Position numbers and translations under genes: made by a program. From Candidatus Omnitrophota bacterium (GTDB lineage: Bacteria; Hinthialibacterota; Hinthialibacteria; Hinthialibacterales; JAKPRU01), in the NCBI GenBank assembly GCA_029570205.1, contig JAKQSI010000118.1, forward strand, positions 1-64,000: a stretch of 64,000 nt of DNA, in the 5' to 3' direction. This document shows, piece after piece, positions 29,153 to 35,395 of this stretch. The stretch's first letter is position 1; each line of letters begins with the position of its first letter. The notes under the pieces were generated by a model. It searched no databases, was not told the DNA's origin, and worked only from the letters and a program-made list of their open reading frames with translations.

Positions 29153-30610
29153 TCAGTAAACCGACCATTCGTCGATTGCCGTTCCCATCGGTCCCTGGGA
29201 ACCGATATAGGTCCCTCCTTGTCCCGCTGTCTTGACAGGCGAATCGGCGGCCAGTTTAAATCCGTCCCGTGTGAACGTCCCAAAATCGCCGCTCGGATTC
29301 ACGTACTTCGGGTCCACTTCCAGGTTGTTTGAACCCGTAACATTCGTGAATGGCTCACTGGCAACAAAGACATTGCAGTAGTTTGCGGTCAGGGCATTTG
29401 GTTCATAATGCGTGGGATCGTTGACATTACCGTTGTACAGTCCGCTGTCGCCGACAACATTCGTGTTGGTCATGGTCAACGCCAGTCCCGCTGTGGCGCC
29501 GACATCCACACGGACTTCGTAAGGCAGGTTGCCTGTCAGGACATTCTGGTAGAAGTCGCAGTGGTGCACGCTGACCGCGGTTTCCTCGCCGCTGTCATGC
29601 AGCCAGAGACCCTCCCCGTTGCTGCCGGCCGCGATACACCCGGTAATCGTAATTTCCCCCTCTTCAATCTCCATGCCTTGGCCCTCGCTGCCGATAAACA
29701 CGGAGTTTTCGACCGTTCCAATGATGGGCCGGGTGCCGCGCGTTCCATCCATATCCACATTAAACCCATCACCTCGGCATCCCAGAACAGTGCAATTCCT
29801 GACCACATTGTATCCGCCGCCGAGCTGGATGCCGCCGTTGCAATTGATGATGGTGTTGTTCTCAAACAAGTTGCCCGAACCTTTGGCAACAGTGGCATCG
29901 GAGCTGTTCGGATAAGCCCCGTCATCGACCTCGATGCCGGTCTCCTCGCAGTTTTGGATAGTGCAGTTTCGGATGGTGACGGATGGATCCGTCGGGGTTC
30001 CACTCTGAAGTTTGGCGACGGTGGGGCCATAGTTCGCCAGTTCGACAAGGCAATTCTCAATCAGCACACCTGTGGGAGCGGTCTGTACGCCTGCTGTAAT
30101 GATGCTGAGGTTGTCTCCCGGATATCCGGTTCCTGCGCCGCCGGCTCCTCGAATGGTGCAATTCCGAACAGTAACATTGCTGCAATCGAATAGGCTCACA
30201 ATCGCGCTGAGTCCCCCCGCATTTAAGGCCGTGGTGGAGTTCTCAAAAGTGATTCCTTCGATGAGAACTCCCTGGCAACCAAAAAATAAGGCTCCCATAT
30301 AGTCGATCCCGGGGATTCCCAAGGCTTCAACACGTTCCATGTTGTTCTTGGCCCGAATCGTTGGAGTCTGCCCTTCGGCAGCCCGCAGCGTAAACGAGGC
30401 CGCCAAGCCCGCCGCTGCGCCTGCGATGATATCCTCATCGTAGGTGGCGCTATCGCCGATGATAATCGTGTCCCCATTCTTGATCGATGCCAATGCCATC
30501 GCCACGCTGGCGACAGTTCCTGTGCCATCTTTCTTCACCGTGACCGTGGCCCCCATGGCCGTTGAGACGATCAAGGCCACAGCCACCGCAACAACGAACG
30601 TGCGCATCAT
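29153..30610 (-). CDS. Secreted right-handed parallel beta-helix repeat protein
   Basis: A 485-residue protein with a Sec signal peptide (RTFVVAVAVALIVSTAMGA). The rest is a series of roughly 25-residue coils typical of pectate-lyase-like helices: VLIENCLVELANYG, VTIRNCTIQNCEETGIEV, NVVRNCTVLGCRGDGFNV. This DUF1565/NosD-like fold is common in carbohydrate-active or surface proteins; no catalytic residues can be assigned. AAAGGAG precedes the first ATG. A terminator follows. The upstream gene on the same strand is a radical SAM protein, 120 bases away. Confidence 0.85.
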   Translation of the reverse strand: MMRTFVVAVAVALIVSTAMGATVTVKKDGTGTVASVAMALASIKNGDTIIIGDSATYDEDIIAGAAAGLAASFTLRAAEGQTPTIRAKNNMERVEALGIPGIDYMGALFFGCQGVLIEGITFENSTTALNAGGLSAIVSLFDCSNVTVRNCTIRGAGGAGTGYPGDNLSIITAGVQTAPTGVLIENCLVELANYGPTVAKLQSGTPTDPSVTIRNCTIQNCEETGIEVDDGAYPNSSDATVAKGSGNLFENNTIINCNGGIQLGGGYNVVRNCTVLGCRGDGFNVDMDGTRGTRPIIGTVENSVFIGSEGQGMEIEEGEITITGCIAAGSNGEGLWLHDSGEETAVSVHHCDFYQNVLTGNLPYEVRVDVGATAGLALTMTNTNVVGDSGLYNGNVNDPTHYEPNALTANYCNVFVASEPFTNVTGSNNLEVDPKYVNPSGDFGTFTRDGFKLAADSPVKTAGQGGTYIGSQGPMGTAIDEWSVY

Positions 30611-30730: not shown

Positions 30731-32212
30731 TCAAAAAAGATGGCGGGCAAATCGTCGAAAGGCCATGAATACCCGCTTGGCCTCGCCCGGATGGCAAATC
30801 AGAGTCTGCAACATGCGGAGGCAATACCGGGGAGCGAGATAGTATCGTCGCCTGGCTTCATCGCAGAATTGCATCAGTTCTTTGGCGGAGAGTTCCGGGG
30901 TATCAATCAGGCATCGGTGCTGCCCGGTTTCGGTCAACCAATCGCGATAACCGGATGCGTGGAGGTAGTTGTTCTCCTTTGCCCATTGATAGGCGGCCGT
31001 TCCGGGGTAAACCATGATGGGGAAAAACTGCGCAGTATCGCAGGAGAGTCTCTTGGCATACTGAAATGTGTTTTCGAGGCTTTCGCGTGTTTCGCCCGGT
31101 CCGCCGAGAAGGAAGCAGCCGTGAATCATAATTCCTGCGCGGCGGGCATCCTCCCGGAAGCGAATTCCACGGTCCGAGTTTTGCCCCTTGCGCATACCTT
31201 TCAGCACCCCGTTATCCGCGCTTTCGAACCCGACACAGAGTAACCGACAACCTGCTCGTTTCATTAGAGATAGAGTTTCCAGGTCAACATCGGTTCGAGA
31301 ATTGGCGGTCCACGGAAGACGGTTTCCGGAGCGGATCAGTTCTTCACAGATCGCCCATGTCCGTTCCTTATTCGCAGTGAACGTGTCATCCTCAATAAAC
31401 ACCTCGCGGACAGAGGGGATATCGCGCCGGATATACTCAAATTCGCTTGCAACGGACTGCGGGCTGCGGGTCCGGTACTGATGACCGTGCATCACTTGGG
31501 GATACAGACAGAACAGGCAGTGGAAAGGACATCCCCGGCCGGTGATGATGGTGACAACCGGATGACGGGTGATCGAATAGAAGTAATCCTCGATACGCAG
31601 GTGTCTTTTGTAGACTTGGCTGACCCAGGGAAGTGAGTCGAGATCCTTTATTTTGTCCCTCGGTTGCGCTGCCAGATCAGCCCCCTCTGTGTCCGAATCG
31701 CTCTTCCCAAGACTGGGGCGGGGCAGGGAGCGGTTGACGATTGCTGTGCCGGGTACGCCGATGGCCTCTTCCCCGCGTTCTTTGCGTCGGCAAAGATCCA
31801 CCACGGTTTCATCGTATTCACCCAAACAGACTCCTCGGAGATCCGGGTACGTTCGGAGGGTTTCCTCATAAGTAGCGGTGACATGAGTCCCGACGGGGAA
31901 AACCCAGGTTTCCGGGAATTGCCGCTGCATGCTTTGGGCAAGCGCGAGATCACTTTCGGCGCTGGGGGTGCTGGTGTCAATGAAAACAAGTTGCGGTTCC
32001 CAGGACCGCATGAGACGAAAAACGGCCTCATTATCCATACCAGTGGCGGGACAATCCACGAGTTTGGTTTCAAATCCCTCCCGTTCCACCATGCCGGTCG
32101 CATACGCGGGCCAGATCGGGTAATACAGTGTGCCGGAACGAATTACGCCGGGACTTCTCTGGCTGCGCGAGTAGCGGGGCAAAAACGGAGGATTTAGAAA
32201 AAGAACACGCAT
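30731..32212 (-). CDS. B12-binding-type radical SAM protein
   Basis: A 493-residue protein. The N-terminal part (RVLFLNPPFLPRYSRSQ, then PQLVFIDTSTPSAESDLAL) looks like the cobalamin-binding Rossmann domain of the BchE/hopanoid-type class, though the DxHxxG motif is not evident. The radical SAM cluster motif CPFHCLFC has cysteines at 228, 232 and 235, followed by VFIEDDTFTANKER. The substrate is unknown; relatives modify lipids, natural products or tetrapyrroles. It is divergent from the cobalamin riboswitch operon. Confidence 0.85.
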   Translation of the reverse strand: MRVLFLNPPFLPRYSRSQRSPGVIRSGTLYYPIWPAYATGMVEREGFETKLVDCPATGMDNEAVFRLMRSWEPQLVFIDTSTPSAESDLALAQSMQRQFPETWVFPVGTHVTATYEETLRTYPDLRGVCLGEYDETVVDLCRRKERGEEAIGVPGTAIVNRSLPRPSLGKSDSDTEGADLAAQPRDKIKDLDSLPWVSQVYKRHLRIEDYFYSITRHPVVTIITGRGCPFHCLFCLYPQVMHGHQYRTRSPQSVASEFEYIRRDIPSVREVFIEDDTFTANKERTWAICEELIRSGNRLPWTANSRTDVDLETLSLMKRAGCRLLCVGFESADNGVLKGMRKGQNSDRGIRFREDARRAGIMIHGCFLLGGPGETRESLENTFQYAKRLSCDTAQFFPIMVYPGTAAYQWAKENNYLHASGYRDWLTETGQHRCLIDTPELSAKELMQFCDEARRRYYLAPRYCLRMLQTLICHPGEAKRVFMAFRRFARHLF

Positions 32213-32570
32213 GATGGAGTGGGCCGATATTCACAGATCGGAAGGCTCTACCGCCTGCGGGTGAGCGAACCGTACAGCTGCCCGCCTCGGCGCTCGGGTC
32301 GCTTTCCAGCGGAGCCTTATCTCCCGGCGAGCAAGCACCAGTATACTTGGATTCTTCGGACAGAGAAGAACAGAAACAAACCGAATTCCCTGTCACCAAG
32401 ACGAAAAATGTGTTCTCCATGTCCCCGAACAGGTGTTACCTGTGTCTTCGGTGCAAACAGACCTGATGGATGAGATTTATTCCCGGGCCATCAATCTTCC
32501 CGAGCAGTCTGTCAAGCCAATTCGTTTATGGGTCACTGGCAATTCCACCCAGACCGTCTTATCATATCTC

Positions 32571-32757
32571 TTATCGGTGGGTCAACAGGGAAGCCGGTAC
32601 GAGTCCGGCGCGGTCCCGCCACTGTAACCGGGAACGAAACCTCAATCGCCATTGTCTCCCTCTCAAGGAGATGAGAAGGCGAGGAAGTAGGAACCCTTAT
32701 CGGACGAATGCACGATGAGGAGATGGCCCGGAAGCCAGGAAACCTGCCCTCCGATCA
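32571..32757 (+). promoter_or_regulatory. Cobalamin riboswitch
   Basis: The conserved B12 elements are all present: AGGGAAGCCGGT, AGTCCGG, the core CCCGCCACTGTAACCGGG and the B12 box region GAAGCCAGGAAACCTGCC. P1 closes with ATCGG (32573-32577) and CCGAT (32751-32755). The peripheral arm around 32650-32690 is extended. It lies in a 680-base leader and reads toward a pseudopilin gene and btuCD, so adenosylcobalamin should repress that operon. The remaining leader (32213-32570) shows no gene. Confidence 0.95.
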
Positions 32758-32892
32758 CCCCGGGAACCTGGAAGCTGACCGAGGAGAATGCTCCGGTGTG
32801 AGAGAACGAATCTTGCAATATCACCGCCTTTTGTCGTTCCGAATCGCAGCGCCGTCATTCACTCGCACATCTTCCGTTCTCCGCGTACGAGG

Positions 32893-33612
32893 ATGCGCCT
32901 GAGAATGTCAGTGTCCTTTTCTTCAAAAACCGGCGGATTTACGCTGATCGAAATCCTGATTGTTGTCGCGATTATCGGTGTCCTTTCCGCAATCGTAAGC
33001 GCAAACTATTTTGAGGCTGTCGAGCGCGCCGACAAGGCCGCGTGTCAGCAAAACCTCCACACCGTCTATTCGGCCCTGCAATCGTACCGACTCGACTATA
33101 ACCGATTCCCCCCGGGCGATGGTCTTGCGGATATGCGCTCCCATCCTGATCTCACCGTGTTCGGATGCGGCCCGGCGGCGAACGGCTATTGGAGCGGTGT
33201 CTCCCTGCTCCTGACCGAGCTGGGATACTGCTCCGAAGACAGCCTGTATTGCCCGGCATTGAGACGCGCCCACTATACACCGGTTCCCGCGTATTCCGCT
33301 TCCGGCCAATCCGGATTCTCCGGCAAACAGATTCCACAGTGGCGTTATCTCCGTTTCGCTTACAACAGTGCGGCAACCGATTCAGGCGGATACGAGGGGG
33401 GAGAACAAAATATCGAGAAAGATCTCGATGCGGATATCTGGCTGGTGCGCTGCCTGCACCTGGATATCGGACAATTCGATAAGGAACGAGATATTCCTTT
33501 CCCGTTTCGAGTAAACATCGATGAAGAAAATCCCGCTTGCAGCTGGTATGGAGAGTTCGAACTGACTCTCCAGGGATCCATTCGGCTTCGCCCGGTCGAG
33601 CGGCGAAATTGA
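32893..33612 (+). CDS. Pseudopilin-like protein under the cobalamin riboswitch
   Basis: A 239-residue protein with a class III leader: a basic segment, then GGFTLIEILIVVAIIGVLSA, a GFTLIE cleavage site plus hydrophobic helix. After it come NYFEAVERADKAACQQNLHT and a globular domain of about 190 residues with five cysteines (AACQQN, TVFGCGP, LGYCSEDSLYCP). ATG 32893 or 32905 may be the start; neither has an ideal site. It is the first gene after the riboswitch and 55 bases before btuC, so it is probably cotranscribed with the B12 importer. A role in cobamide capture is possible but inferred only from position. Confidence 0.8.
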   Translation: MRLRMSVSFSSKTGGFTLIEILIVVAIIGVLSAIVSANYFEAVERADKAACQQNLHTVYSALQSYRLDYNRFPPGDGLADMRSHPDLTVFGCGPAANGYWSGVSLLLTELGYCSEDSLYCPALRRAHYTPVPAYSASGQSGFSGKQIPQWRYLRFAYNSAATDSGGYEGGEQNIEKDLDADIWLVRCLHLDIGQFDKERDIPFPFRVNIDEENPACSWYGEFELTLQGSIRLRPVERRN

Positions 33613-33667
33613 CCCGGCTCTTCGACCGTGCCATTCCGACGGACATTTGACATCTGGAAACCTGTTT

Positions 33668-34648
33668 ATGAAAAATCCCCGTCGCCTGATTGCCCCGTTA
33701 ATCGCCTCCCTTGCGGCGCTGGTTTGGGTGGAAATCTCGATAGGACCGGTGGGGCTGTCTTTTGCAGACCTGCTTGCCGCGCTGGCATCTCCGGAATCGG
33801 CGAACGGCGTGATTATCTGGGATTTACGCATTCCGAGAATCGTTTATGCGCTTTGTGTCGGCAGCGGGTTGGCGGTATGTGGATTGGCATTACAGGGGCT
33901 TTTCAGAAATCCGTTAGCCGAACCGTTTACGCTGGGGATTTCCGGTGGAGCCGCTCTCGGTGCGGTTCTTGTCTTGACTACCGGTCTGCCGTTCGGCTCG
34001 GTGGGCATGGCCGCGGCGTCCTTTTTGGGCGCTCTGGTTGTTTGTCTGGTCGTTTATTTGCTGGCCGCTCGCACACTTTTTTCCGCAACCGCGCTGATTC
34101 TGGGCGGTGTGATGCTCGGATTTTTCGCTCAATCCGGGGTCCTGCTCGCCATTGCGCTGGCGCCGGGCCTGCGCGCCCAGGGAGCCATGATGTGGCTGAT
34201 GGGAGACATGAGTTACGCGCCGAGGGATCTTCTTCTTCCTGTACTCACTCTAACCGCGGTCGGCGTGGTGTTCCTGTTCCGTCAAGCCCGTGGATTAAAC
34301 GTCCTCTCTTTGGGAGATGAGAAAGCAACCTCCCTCGGCCTGAATGTGCCCCGATTGCGGCGCAACGTATTTCTGGGGTGCAGCCTGATTACCGGGACCA
34401 CTGTCGCGGTGCTGGGCATCATCGGCTTCGTCGGCTTGATTATCCCGAATGCCGTCCGGCGATTGGCGGGCGGCGACCATCGAACACTGTTTCCGCTGTC
34501 CGCACTGGCAGGGGCCTGTTTTATTCTTCTCTGCGATGTCCTGGCCCGTTCGCTACTCGATCCTGTCGAGTTGCCGCTCGGCATCGTTACAGGATTTGTC
34601 GGCAGTCTCGCGTTCTTATGGATTTTCGTATCCCGTAAACGGGTGTGA
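33668..34648 (+). CDS. btuC: Cobalamin-type ABC transporter permease (FecCD/BtuC family)
   Basis: A 326-residue inner-membrane permease with about ten helices. Family sequence includes WDLRIPRIVYALCVGSGLAV with CGLALQGLFRNPLAEP, then LGISGGAALGAVLV, and the coupling loop GFVGLIIPNAVRRLAGGDHR. FecCD permeases also carry iron siderophores and heme; the riboswitch upstream argues for cobamides. The ATG at 33668 is the first in-frame ATG. No substrate-binding protein (BtuF) is encoded in the operon. Confidence 0.9.
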   Translation: MKNPRRLIAPLIASLAALVWVEISIGPVGLSFADLLAALASPESANGVIIWDLRIPRIVYALCVGSGLAVCGLALQGLFRNPLAEPFTLGISGGAALGAVLVLTTGLPFGSVGMAAASFLGALVVCLVVYLLAARTLFSATALILGGVMLGFFAQSGVLLAIALAPGLRAQGAMMWLMGDMSYAPRDLLLPVLTLTAVGVVFLFRQARGLNVLSLGDEKATSLGLNVPRLRRNVFLGCSLITGTTVAVLGIIGFVGLIIPNAVRRLAGGDHRTLFPLSALAGACFILLCDVLARSLLDPVELPLGIVTGFVGSLAFLWIFVSRKRV

Positions 34649-34657
34649 TGCAAAGCC

Positions 34658-35395
34658 ATGCTGAAATTGGAACATGTTGTTATAGAGATTTCCGGAAGAT
34701 ACATTGTCCGTGACTTTTCCGCCGGATTCCCGGAGAAATCTCTAACCTGTATTATCGGCCCAAACGGTGCAGGGAAGAGTACTCTTCTCCGCGCTGTTTC
34801 AAATATCCTTCCGCTTACCCGGGGAACGCTCTCCTTTCAATCGGTCGATCTGCAATCACTACCGGCCCGCGAGCGGGCACGAAGGCTCTCTTATCTTCCT
34901 CAGACCATGCAATATGCTCCATCCTTTCCGGTTTCGCTGTTCGTCGAACTTGGAGGCGATCCCTGGGGCAATGAATGGGAACCGGCGTGGAAGGCGGAAC
35001 ACCTCGAACGTTGCCTGCATCTCTGCAATGTCGCCCATTTGAAGGAACGGGAAGTGGCCACCCTGAGCGGCGGAGAACGCCAGCGCGTCTATCTGGCCCA
35101 GGTGATTTATCAGAATACCCCGGTCATCCTGCTCGATGAACCCAGTTCATTCCTGGACCTGAAAAACATCGTGTTAATCGAAAACGCGCTGGCCCGCATT
35201 CGCGATGACGGGCGAACCATCCTGATGGTGACGCATGATCTGCACACCGTCCGTCGTATCGCAACACAGGTTATCGCCATGAAAGATGGGACACCATTCG
35301 CGGTAGATACGCCCGCTGCAGTTCTAAATCCGTCGCTTATCGCGGAATTGTTCGACCTGGACTGCGAAACATTACGCGAGCGCTTCTTCAAGTGA
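34658..35395 (+). CDS. btuD: Cobalamin-type ABC transporter ATP-binding protein
   Basis: A 245-residue ATPase pairing with the permease nine bases upstream. Walker A is GPNGAGKS, the Q-loop lies in SYLPQT, the signature is LSGGERQR, Walker B is VILLDEPSSFLD and the switch histidine follows in VTHDLHTV. It ends the riboswitch operon; the next gene is convergent, 96 bases away. Confidence 0.92.
   Translation: MLKLEHVVIEISGRYIVRDFSAGFPEKSLTCIIGPNGAGKSTLLRAVSNILPLTRGTLSFQSVDLQSLPARERARRLSYLPQTMQYAPSFPVSLFVELGGDPWGNEWEPAWKAEHLERCLHLCNVAHLKEREVATLSGGERQRVYLAQVIYQNTPVILLDEPSSFLDLKNIVLIENALARIRDDGRTILMVTHDLHTVRRIATQVIAMKDGTPFAVDTPAAVLNPSLIAELFDLDCETLRERFFK

Follow-up and report, generated by a model that had tools for sequence, protein, structure and literature searches.

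A pseudopilin family conserved behind cobalamin riboswitches, a candidate envelope part of bacterial cobamide capture

Why would a pseudopilin gene stand directly behind a cobalamin riboswitch? The question is raised by a 64,000-nucleotide (nt) stretch of DNA, called the window below, from a Candidatus Omnitrophota bacterium of the class Hinthialibacteria (positions 1 to 64,000 of contig JAKQSI010000118.1, assembly GCA_029570205.1; G000 in our numbering of genomes). A full cobalamin riboswitch aptamer is followed here, on the same strand, by a gene for a pseudopilin and then by btuC and btuD. This arrangement was proposed in an earlier sequence-only reading of the window, including the GFTLIE motif of the pseudopilin, and each of its elements was recovered in family searches (Table 1). 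We conclude, with a probability of roughly 60%, that the pseudopilin is a dedicated envelope part of cobamide capture that acts with a transcobalamin-like and a propeller-like protein and feeds BtuF-BtuCD.

The association of riboswitch and pseudopilin proved real, specific and conserved. A model of the globular domain of the pseudopilin (A5, 162 positions) has matches at E <= 1e-4 in 17 of the 386 genomes searched, and in 17/17 of these carriers the gene stands behind a cobalamin riboswitch. Carriers include 13 of the 14 class genomes (all but G009) and four from outside it, namely G025, G173 and G312, which belong to one family, and G279, which belongs to another. The riboswitch also precedes the pseudopilin in these four, although the one in G173 is a partial aptamer match (model positions 47-167). 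Sixteen carriers have a single copy and one, G008, has two; only 212 nt of contig lie upstream of the second G008 copy (L151, contig C47), so its riboswitch link is not judgeable. Within the run of genes behind the riboswitch the pseudopilin is first in 11 genomes, second in three, third in two and last of six in one, and because this rank varies, the riboswitch link has outlasted rearrangement. With 82 matches to the N_methyl family in the genome of the window, such a gene would be expected by chance at most 500 nt downstream and on the same strand in fewer than 0.5% of riboswitches. Riboswitches are related by descent and binomial figures assume independence, so these figures were not used as p-values.

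So many N_methyl matches in one genome mean that the motif by itself says little. The pseudopilin nevertheless forms a family of its own. A search with the whole protein against 61 genomes found close relatives in 8/8 genomes of the same order (G001-G008; the G002 copy is split into two pieces on two contigs), and beyond the family the matches listed cover mostly residues 10-90, which is the N-terminal helix plus a little. In NCBIfam the protein falls under the equivalog cut-offs for GspG, PilA and ComGC, with the GspG model TIGR01710 giving 54.2 bits against a cut-off of 88.85, over residues 15-86 only. Elements conserved without exception in a 14-member alignment include GxGPxxxGxWxG, RxAY, AxD and WxxR. 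Five cysteines had been counted outside the N-terminal helix, and they are found at C92, C113, C120, C187 and C216, with C51 inside the helix. Among the aligned members C92/C113 and C120/C187 are kept or lost pairwise, a behaviour that suggests two disulphides. The structure prediction that had been recommended for this protein gave a pilin-like model (predicted local distance difference test score, pLDDT, 78.7; helix at residues 18-69) and no close solved relative. Foldseek returned no match at E <= 0.001 (best E 0.05), and in a second structural comparison the rows at Z >= 3 were all pilins or pseudopilins. Because the best Z was only 6.0, the model does not speak for or against a B12 site, and the weak fold matches were not used to claim a new fold.

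A survey of the 14 class genomes yielded 27 cobalamin riboswitches, all of which were sorted by their downstream genes, using translated searches with six query proteins and reading of open reading frames (ORFs). The pseudopilin family is present in the same gene run for 13 of the 27 (in 13/14 genomes), and seven riboswitches head a transcobalamin-like protein, the G011 copy of which is partial and has an internal stop. Three riboswitches, in G003, G004 and G006, are separate ones that head btuF-btuD-btuC. The last (G009; C1115, L201) has a pseudopilin of another type as its first recognisable gene, about 290 nt downstream, and so the sole class genome without the family still has a pseudopilin behind a riboswitch. 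Directly behind the remaining three (L202 on contig C37 of G010, L199 on C5 of G012 and L200 on C563 of G013) lie genes for secreted-type proteins of about 400-700 amino acids (aa), alike by eye, which carry the motif LxFTxxPxGYxxDSI. The two of them that were scanned, L202 and L199, have no NCBIfam match over cut-off. All three are candidate B12 binders.

Which genes accompany the pseudopilin differs between carriers. The exact order riboswitch-pseudopilin-btuC-btuD was found in the genus of the window only (3/3 genomes: G000, G001 and G002, the last over two contigs), and btuC and btuD lie near the pseudopilin in 5/17 genomes, these three together with G011 and G279. Of the synteny that had been named as a check in relatives, the riboswitch-pseudopilin pair was therefore upheld throughout, and the order with btuCD was limited to the genus. 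The genes behind the riboswitch are those for the transcobalamin-like protein, the propeller and the pseudopilin in G006 and G008, and propeller, pseudopilin, btuD, btuF and btuC in G011. The run in G279 reads btuF, btuC, btuD, a 267-aa secreted-type protein, a propeller-like protein (26% identity) and finally the pseudopilin. CobT follows riboswitch and pseudopilin in G003 and G007. Many of these neighbours point to cobamide acquisition, and the shuffled gene order behind a constant riboswitch speaks against the simple descent of a single fixed gene order.

Two further sets of neighbours were observed. A 269-aa secreted-type protein is encoded between riboswitch and pseudopilin in G025 (L156 8902-9711) and G312 (L220 7273-8082). 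The G025 protein scored 37.9 bits with the LIC_13355 lipoprotein family, below the cut-off of 120, and had no match in a PDB sequence search and a Pfam scan. The second pseudopilin copy of G008 (L151) is followed by a distant propeller relative (23% identity) and then by an ExbB-like channel, DUF2149 and a CobN-like chelatase. CobN-ExbB sets in other organisms accompany TonB-type uptake.

The proposed partners of the pseudopilin are encoded elsewhere in the genome of the window. This genome has two cobalamin riboswitches, one in the window and one on contig C16, and behind the latter, on one strand, lie the genes for the transcobalamin-like protein (283 aa), the propeller-like protein and a BtuF-like protein. 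The BtuF-like protein is the sole PF01497 match of the genome, and its best NCBIfam match is BtuF (117.8 bits, below the cut-off of 234). Both the transcobalamin-like and the propeller-like protein have secreted-type N-termini (by eye). A pseudopilin gene past btuF on C16 (L034 4972-5769, - strand) was considered as a second link and rejected: it lies beyond a cysK-like gene on the opposite strand (by eye), and it is not among the family matches listed for the whole protein.

Every genome of the order (9/9) encodes the transcobalamin-like protein; G011, G046 and G344 add only weak partial matches, which brings the total to 12/386 genomes. A structural model based on eight sequences (pLDDT 82.8) consists of two repeats. 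In a second structural comparison its 15 top rows were haptocorrin, intrinsic factor, transcobalamin and 3u7z (Z 12.1-13.1); Z was 12.8-13.1 for 3u7z, 4kki, 3kq4, 2bb6 and 5no0, and 5.7 for the next unrelated structure. Foldseek placed the carriers at E 2e-4 to 1e-2, with ubiquitin-fold proteins of lower probability mixed in among them. As modelled, the protein has the beta-domain fold of B12 carriers, and it is a putative corrin binder. PDB profile searches gave nothing significant (best E 1.4 and 0.31, both unrelated), so only the structural model reached the B12 carriers. Pfam DUF4430 had no match in three members of the family, the C16 protein included. Among the distant relatives, one in G046 reached 23.8 bits with DUF4430 (cut-off 23.8), another in the same genome, which stands behind a cobalamin riboswitch, reached 16.8, and the one in G344 had no match. 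The propeller-like protein of C16 matches BNR_4 with 30.4 bits (cut-off 27.3) and its G006 relative with 22.8, below cut-off; a PDB profile search brought up a xylanase and some sialidases, with E values of 0.01-0.05, and nothing else.

A C-terminal tail, [VI]-x(1,4)-W-x-[LMVIW]-[YHF] (for example ...TAIDEWSVY), recurs on several proteins of this clade, including B12 propeller-like proteins. It was seen in the window at 29153-30610 (- strand), at L034 8027-9436, and in L013, L145, L146, L147, L149, L150, L152, L194 and L195. The tail occurs at 11/283 ORF ends and at 1/14,150 internal cuts, with a pattern derived from the same sequences as were counted. A crude comparison with signal peptides was not significant (9/114 vs 7/169, p 0.2). 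The tail possibly serves as a signal for sorting or secretion.

A need for external cobamides is suggested by the gene content of the class. CbiC (PF02570), which acts in the synthesis of the corrin ring, was found in 0/14 class genomes, with the same search positive in 7/14 control genomes; members of the class are therefore probably B12 salvagers in which, judging from this single gene, the corrin ring is not made. Neither the barrel (PF00593) nor the plug (PF07715) of TonB-dependent receptors had a match in the genome of the window, which is 93% complete as assembled, and both searches were positive in 3/14 control genomes (E. coli, Caulobacter and Bacteroides). Plugs were likewise not found in 11/17 carriers, 7/13 in the class and 4/4 outside it. 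Of the 20 plug matches within the class, two are on a riboswitch contig, about 88 and 236 kilobases off, and 18 are on other contigs, a separation that in such fragmented assemblies is not proof of distance. Six secretin matches were found in the genome of the window.

We favor a dedicated role of the pseudopilin in cobamide capture because its riboswitch link holds in every carrier and part of the carriers have B12-related partners, because the partner model has a transcobalamin-like fold in a class where CbiC was not found, and because no plug was found in most carriers and the genome of the window has six secretin matches. Cobalamin riboswitches of this class release expression when cell B12 is low. 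Low B12 would accordingly release expression of the pseudopilin, which type II secretion or type IV pilus-like machinery would process and assemble. The pseudopilin, presumably located at the surface, would then present or organise its extracytoplasmic partners, the tandem transcobalamin-beta-like and the propeller-like secreted proteins, which are putative B12 binders. B12 would be bound by the pseudopilin or by these partners, and cobamide caught at or outside the outer membrane would be handed over to BtuF and imported by BtuCD. The pseudopilin may also have a part in crossing the outer membrane. One such route, free of TonB receptors, would have the pseudopilin carry or dock the transcobalamin-like and propeller proteins and a secretin-based cycle of extension and retraction bring cobamide to BtuF-BtuCD, comparable to competence pseudopili and DNA. 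We offer this route tentatively and consider it less likely than not.

Several observations weigh against a role in cobamide capture. In G004, G010, G013 and G173 only riboswitch and pseudopilin stand together, followed by a gene of opposite orientation. In G005 and G012 the first gene to follow on the same strand begins 250-340 nt further on and is not a recognised B12 gene. For 12/17 carriers there is no btuC or btuD match above 60 bits in the stretches read, where genes judged by eye were only partly family-scanned and further B12 genes may have been overlooked. The predicted globular domain is without a close solved relative (best Z 6.0, no Foldseek match at E <= 0.001), and a ligand site is therefore not readable from homology. 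The name of the propeller-like protein derives from a marginal family match. Finally, 6/17 carriers do have TonB-receptor plugs, and the system is thus not restricted to receptor-free genomes.

The main rival explanation is secretion. The pseudopilin would help a type II-like machine to bring the propeller and the transcobalamin-like protein, as B12 binders, to the surface, and would itself have no direct role in uptake. Type II pseudopilins are established secretion parts, the two partner proteins look secreted and adjoin the pseudopilin in some genomes, the six secretin matches are compatible with such a machine, and the C-terminal tail common to several of these proteins is a possible sorting signal. 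However, the four genomes in which the next gene is on the opposite strand have no cargo gene after the pseudopilin behind the riboswitch. Type II systems, moreover, would not usually be expected to reserve a pseudopilin for a single group of cargoes. We regard secretion as unlikely, though it deserves to be weighed seriously.

An adhesive role is less probable than this. Pilins often serve adhesion, and B12 starvation could induce a pilus-like adhesin or attachment fibre directed toward B12 producers or surfaces, with no role in transport; riboswitch control without btuCD nearby in 12/17 genomes would fit such a fibre. It accounts poorly for those genomes in which btuCDF, CobT or CobN, or the protein whose model resembles B12 carriers, lie in one gene run with the pseudopilin, and we consider it improbable.

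The sequence-only reading had also suggested that the pseudopilin takes the place of BtuF as the periplasmic substrate-binding protein of BtuCD, and this idea has not survived well. The pseudopilin adjoins btuC in an operon that, as had been stated, contains neither BtuF nor an outer-membrane receptor. Yet the BtuF-like PF01497 protein is encoded behind the other riboswitch, BtuF-like proteins share runs with the pseudopilin itself in G011 and G279, and the pseudopilin has no PF01497 match. Replacement of BtuF is thus very improbable. The same data bear on the suggestion that a separate btuF under its own riboswitch would speak against the link: btuF is indeed separate in the genome of the window, and it is linked to the pseudopilin in G011 and G279. 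That the pseudopilin is a chance neighbour, one among the many N_methyl proteins of the genome, is refuted by its separate globular domain family and the conservation of its riboswitch link in all carriers.

The ABC (ATP-binding cassette) half of the pathway is ordinary: as in E. coli BtuB-BtuFCD, it comprises a FecCD permease, an ATPase and a BtuF-like binding protein. The outer half differs in that no TonB-dependent receptor barrel or plug was found in the genome of the window. In the model of the partner protein, its two repeats take up the beta-domain fold of transcobalamin, intrinsic factor and haptocorrin, but in contrast to these the model has no alpha/alpha-barrel domain and has two beta domains in tandem. 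The pseudopilin shares the prepilin motif and long N-terminal helix of GspG, PilA and ComGC, and differs from them in its own globular domain, its scores below the equivalog cut-offs and the cobalamin riboswitch upstream.

In Bacteroides, the seven-bladed propeller lipoprotein BtuG accompanies BtuB and has a femtomolar affinity for cyanocobalamin (PMC6143338), and other B12-binding extracytoplasmic proteins are also described there (PMC8941943; PMC12751083; PMC13398666). The Bacteroides loci with BtuB, BtuG and BtuH (PMC6143338; PMC8941943) resemble the present system in riboswitch-run salvage and in combining BtuFCD with an extracytoplasmic B12-binding array that includes a beta-propeller. 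Here, by contrast, no TonB-receptor match lies near any riboswitch, and the place of the receptor is taken by a pseudopilin with a tandem transcobalamin-like protein. In the Pfam and NCBIfam scans made, the propeller-like protein had a match to BNR_4 and none to a BtuG family. The arrangement appears to be an independent version of the Bacteroides-type locus without a receptor. The nearest published idea found concerns planctomycete pili-like fibres that bind dextran, for which the authors speculate on uptake (PMC5394234). These too are pilus-like surface fibres of diderm bacteria tied to nutrient capture, but the organisms and the ligand are different, and the word pilin is missing from the text (PMC5394234). 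Searches of open-access papers, judged by title and abstract beginning, yielded nothing on point for pseudopilins or prepilins combined with cobalamin riboswitches, for DUF4430 or transcobalamin-like proteins with cobalamin or its riboswitch, for TonB-independent B12 uptake with pili or for pseudopilin expansion.

These comparisons suggest that what is new is a pseudopilin behind a cobalamin riboswitch, conserved within a class, shared with four genomes from outside that class and tied in part to a tandem transcobalamin-like protein. Transcobalamin-type domains are best known from animal B12 transport, and the model would place them in a bacterial riboswitch-controlled gene set. The findings bear on two questions, how a cofactor of the size of B12 passes the outer membrane in diderms without TonB receptors and why some bacteria have scores of pseudopilins. 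For the second, a pseudopilin family whose likely ligand is hinted at by its riboswitch and some of its neighbours offers a testable case of one pseudopilin for one nutrient, and if a pseudopilus does carry B12 over the outer membrane, that would be categorically new.

At the locus itself, the riboswitch ends 127 nt before the likeliest pseudopilin start, and 55 nt separate the pseudopilin stop from the btuC ATG (33668), as had been counted. BtuC is the top-scoring NCBIfam family for the permease with 210.7 bits, yet stays below its cut-off of 334. BtuD scores 118.1 bits for the ATPase, below a cut-off of 281, and is outscored by FecE, heme and other ATPase models. A terminator or promoter between pseudopilin and btuC had been named as evidence that would separate the two. 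The gap contains no terminator-like site, and its sole promoter-like match (33647-33676) extends over the start of btuC. The region as a whole has 2 such matches, where shuffled sequence would give 2.2. Riboswitch, pseudopilin, btuC and btuD would form one transcript.

Table 1. Features of the riboswitch operon; coordinates are positions within the 64,000-nt window.
Feature	Position	Strand	Evidence and remarks
Cobalamin riboswitch aptamer (RF00174)	32562..32765	+	cmscan 89.7 bits (gathering score 31.5 bits), model positions 1-189 (full)
B12-riboswitch-linked pseudopilin, 239 aa	32893..33612	+	PF07963 N_methyl 28.9 bits, cut-off 21.2; start uncertain, ATG 32893 likeliest, alternative ATGs 32788 and 32905
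Prepilin cleavage/methylation motif and start of N-terminal helix (GFTLIE...)	32926..32997	+	PF07963 match, genome search
Globular domain of the pseudopilin family (GxGPAAxGxW ... RYAYNxAAxDAGG ... WLxRC)	33118..33609	+	Alignment A5, 162-position model
btuC-like FecCD permease	33668..34648 (alternative start TTG 33647)	+	PF01032 FecCD 282.7 bits
btuD-like ABC ATPase	34658..35395	+	PF00005 ABC_tran 91.9 bits

Divergent from this operon, at 30731-32212 on the - strand of the window, lies a gene for a B12-binding radical S-adenosylmethionine protein (PF02310 44.5 bits, PF04055 69.6 bits), which is a possible consumer of B12.

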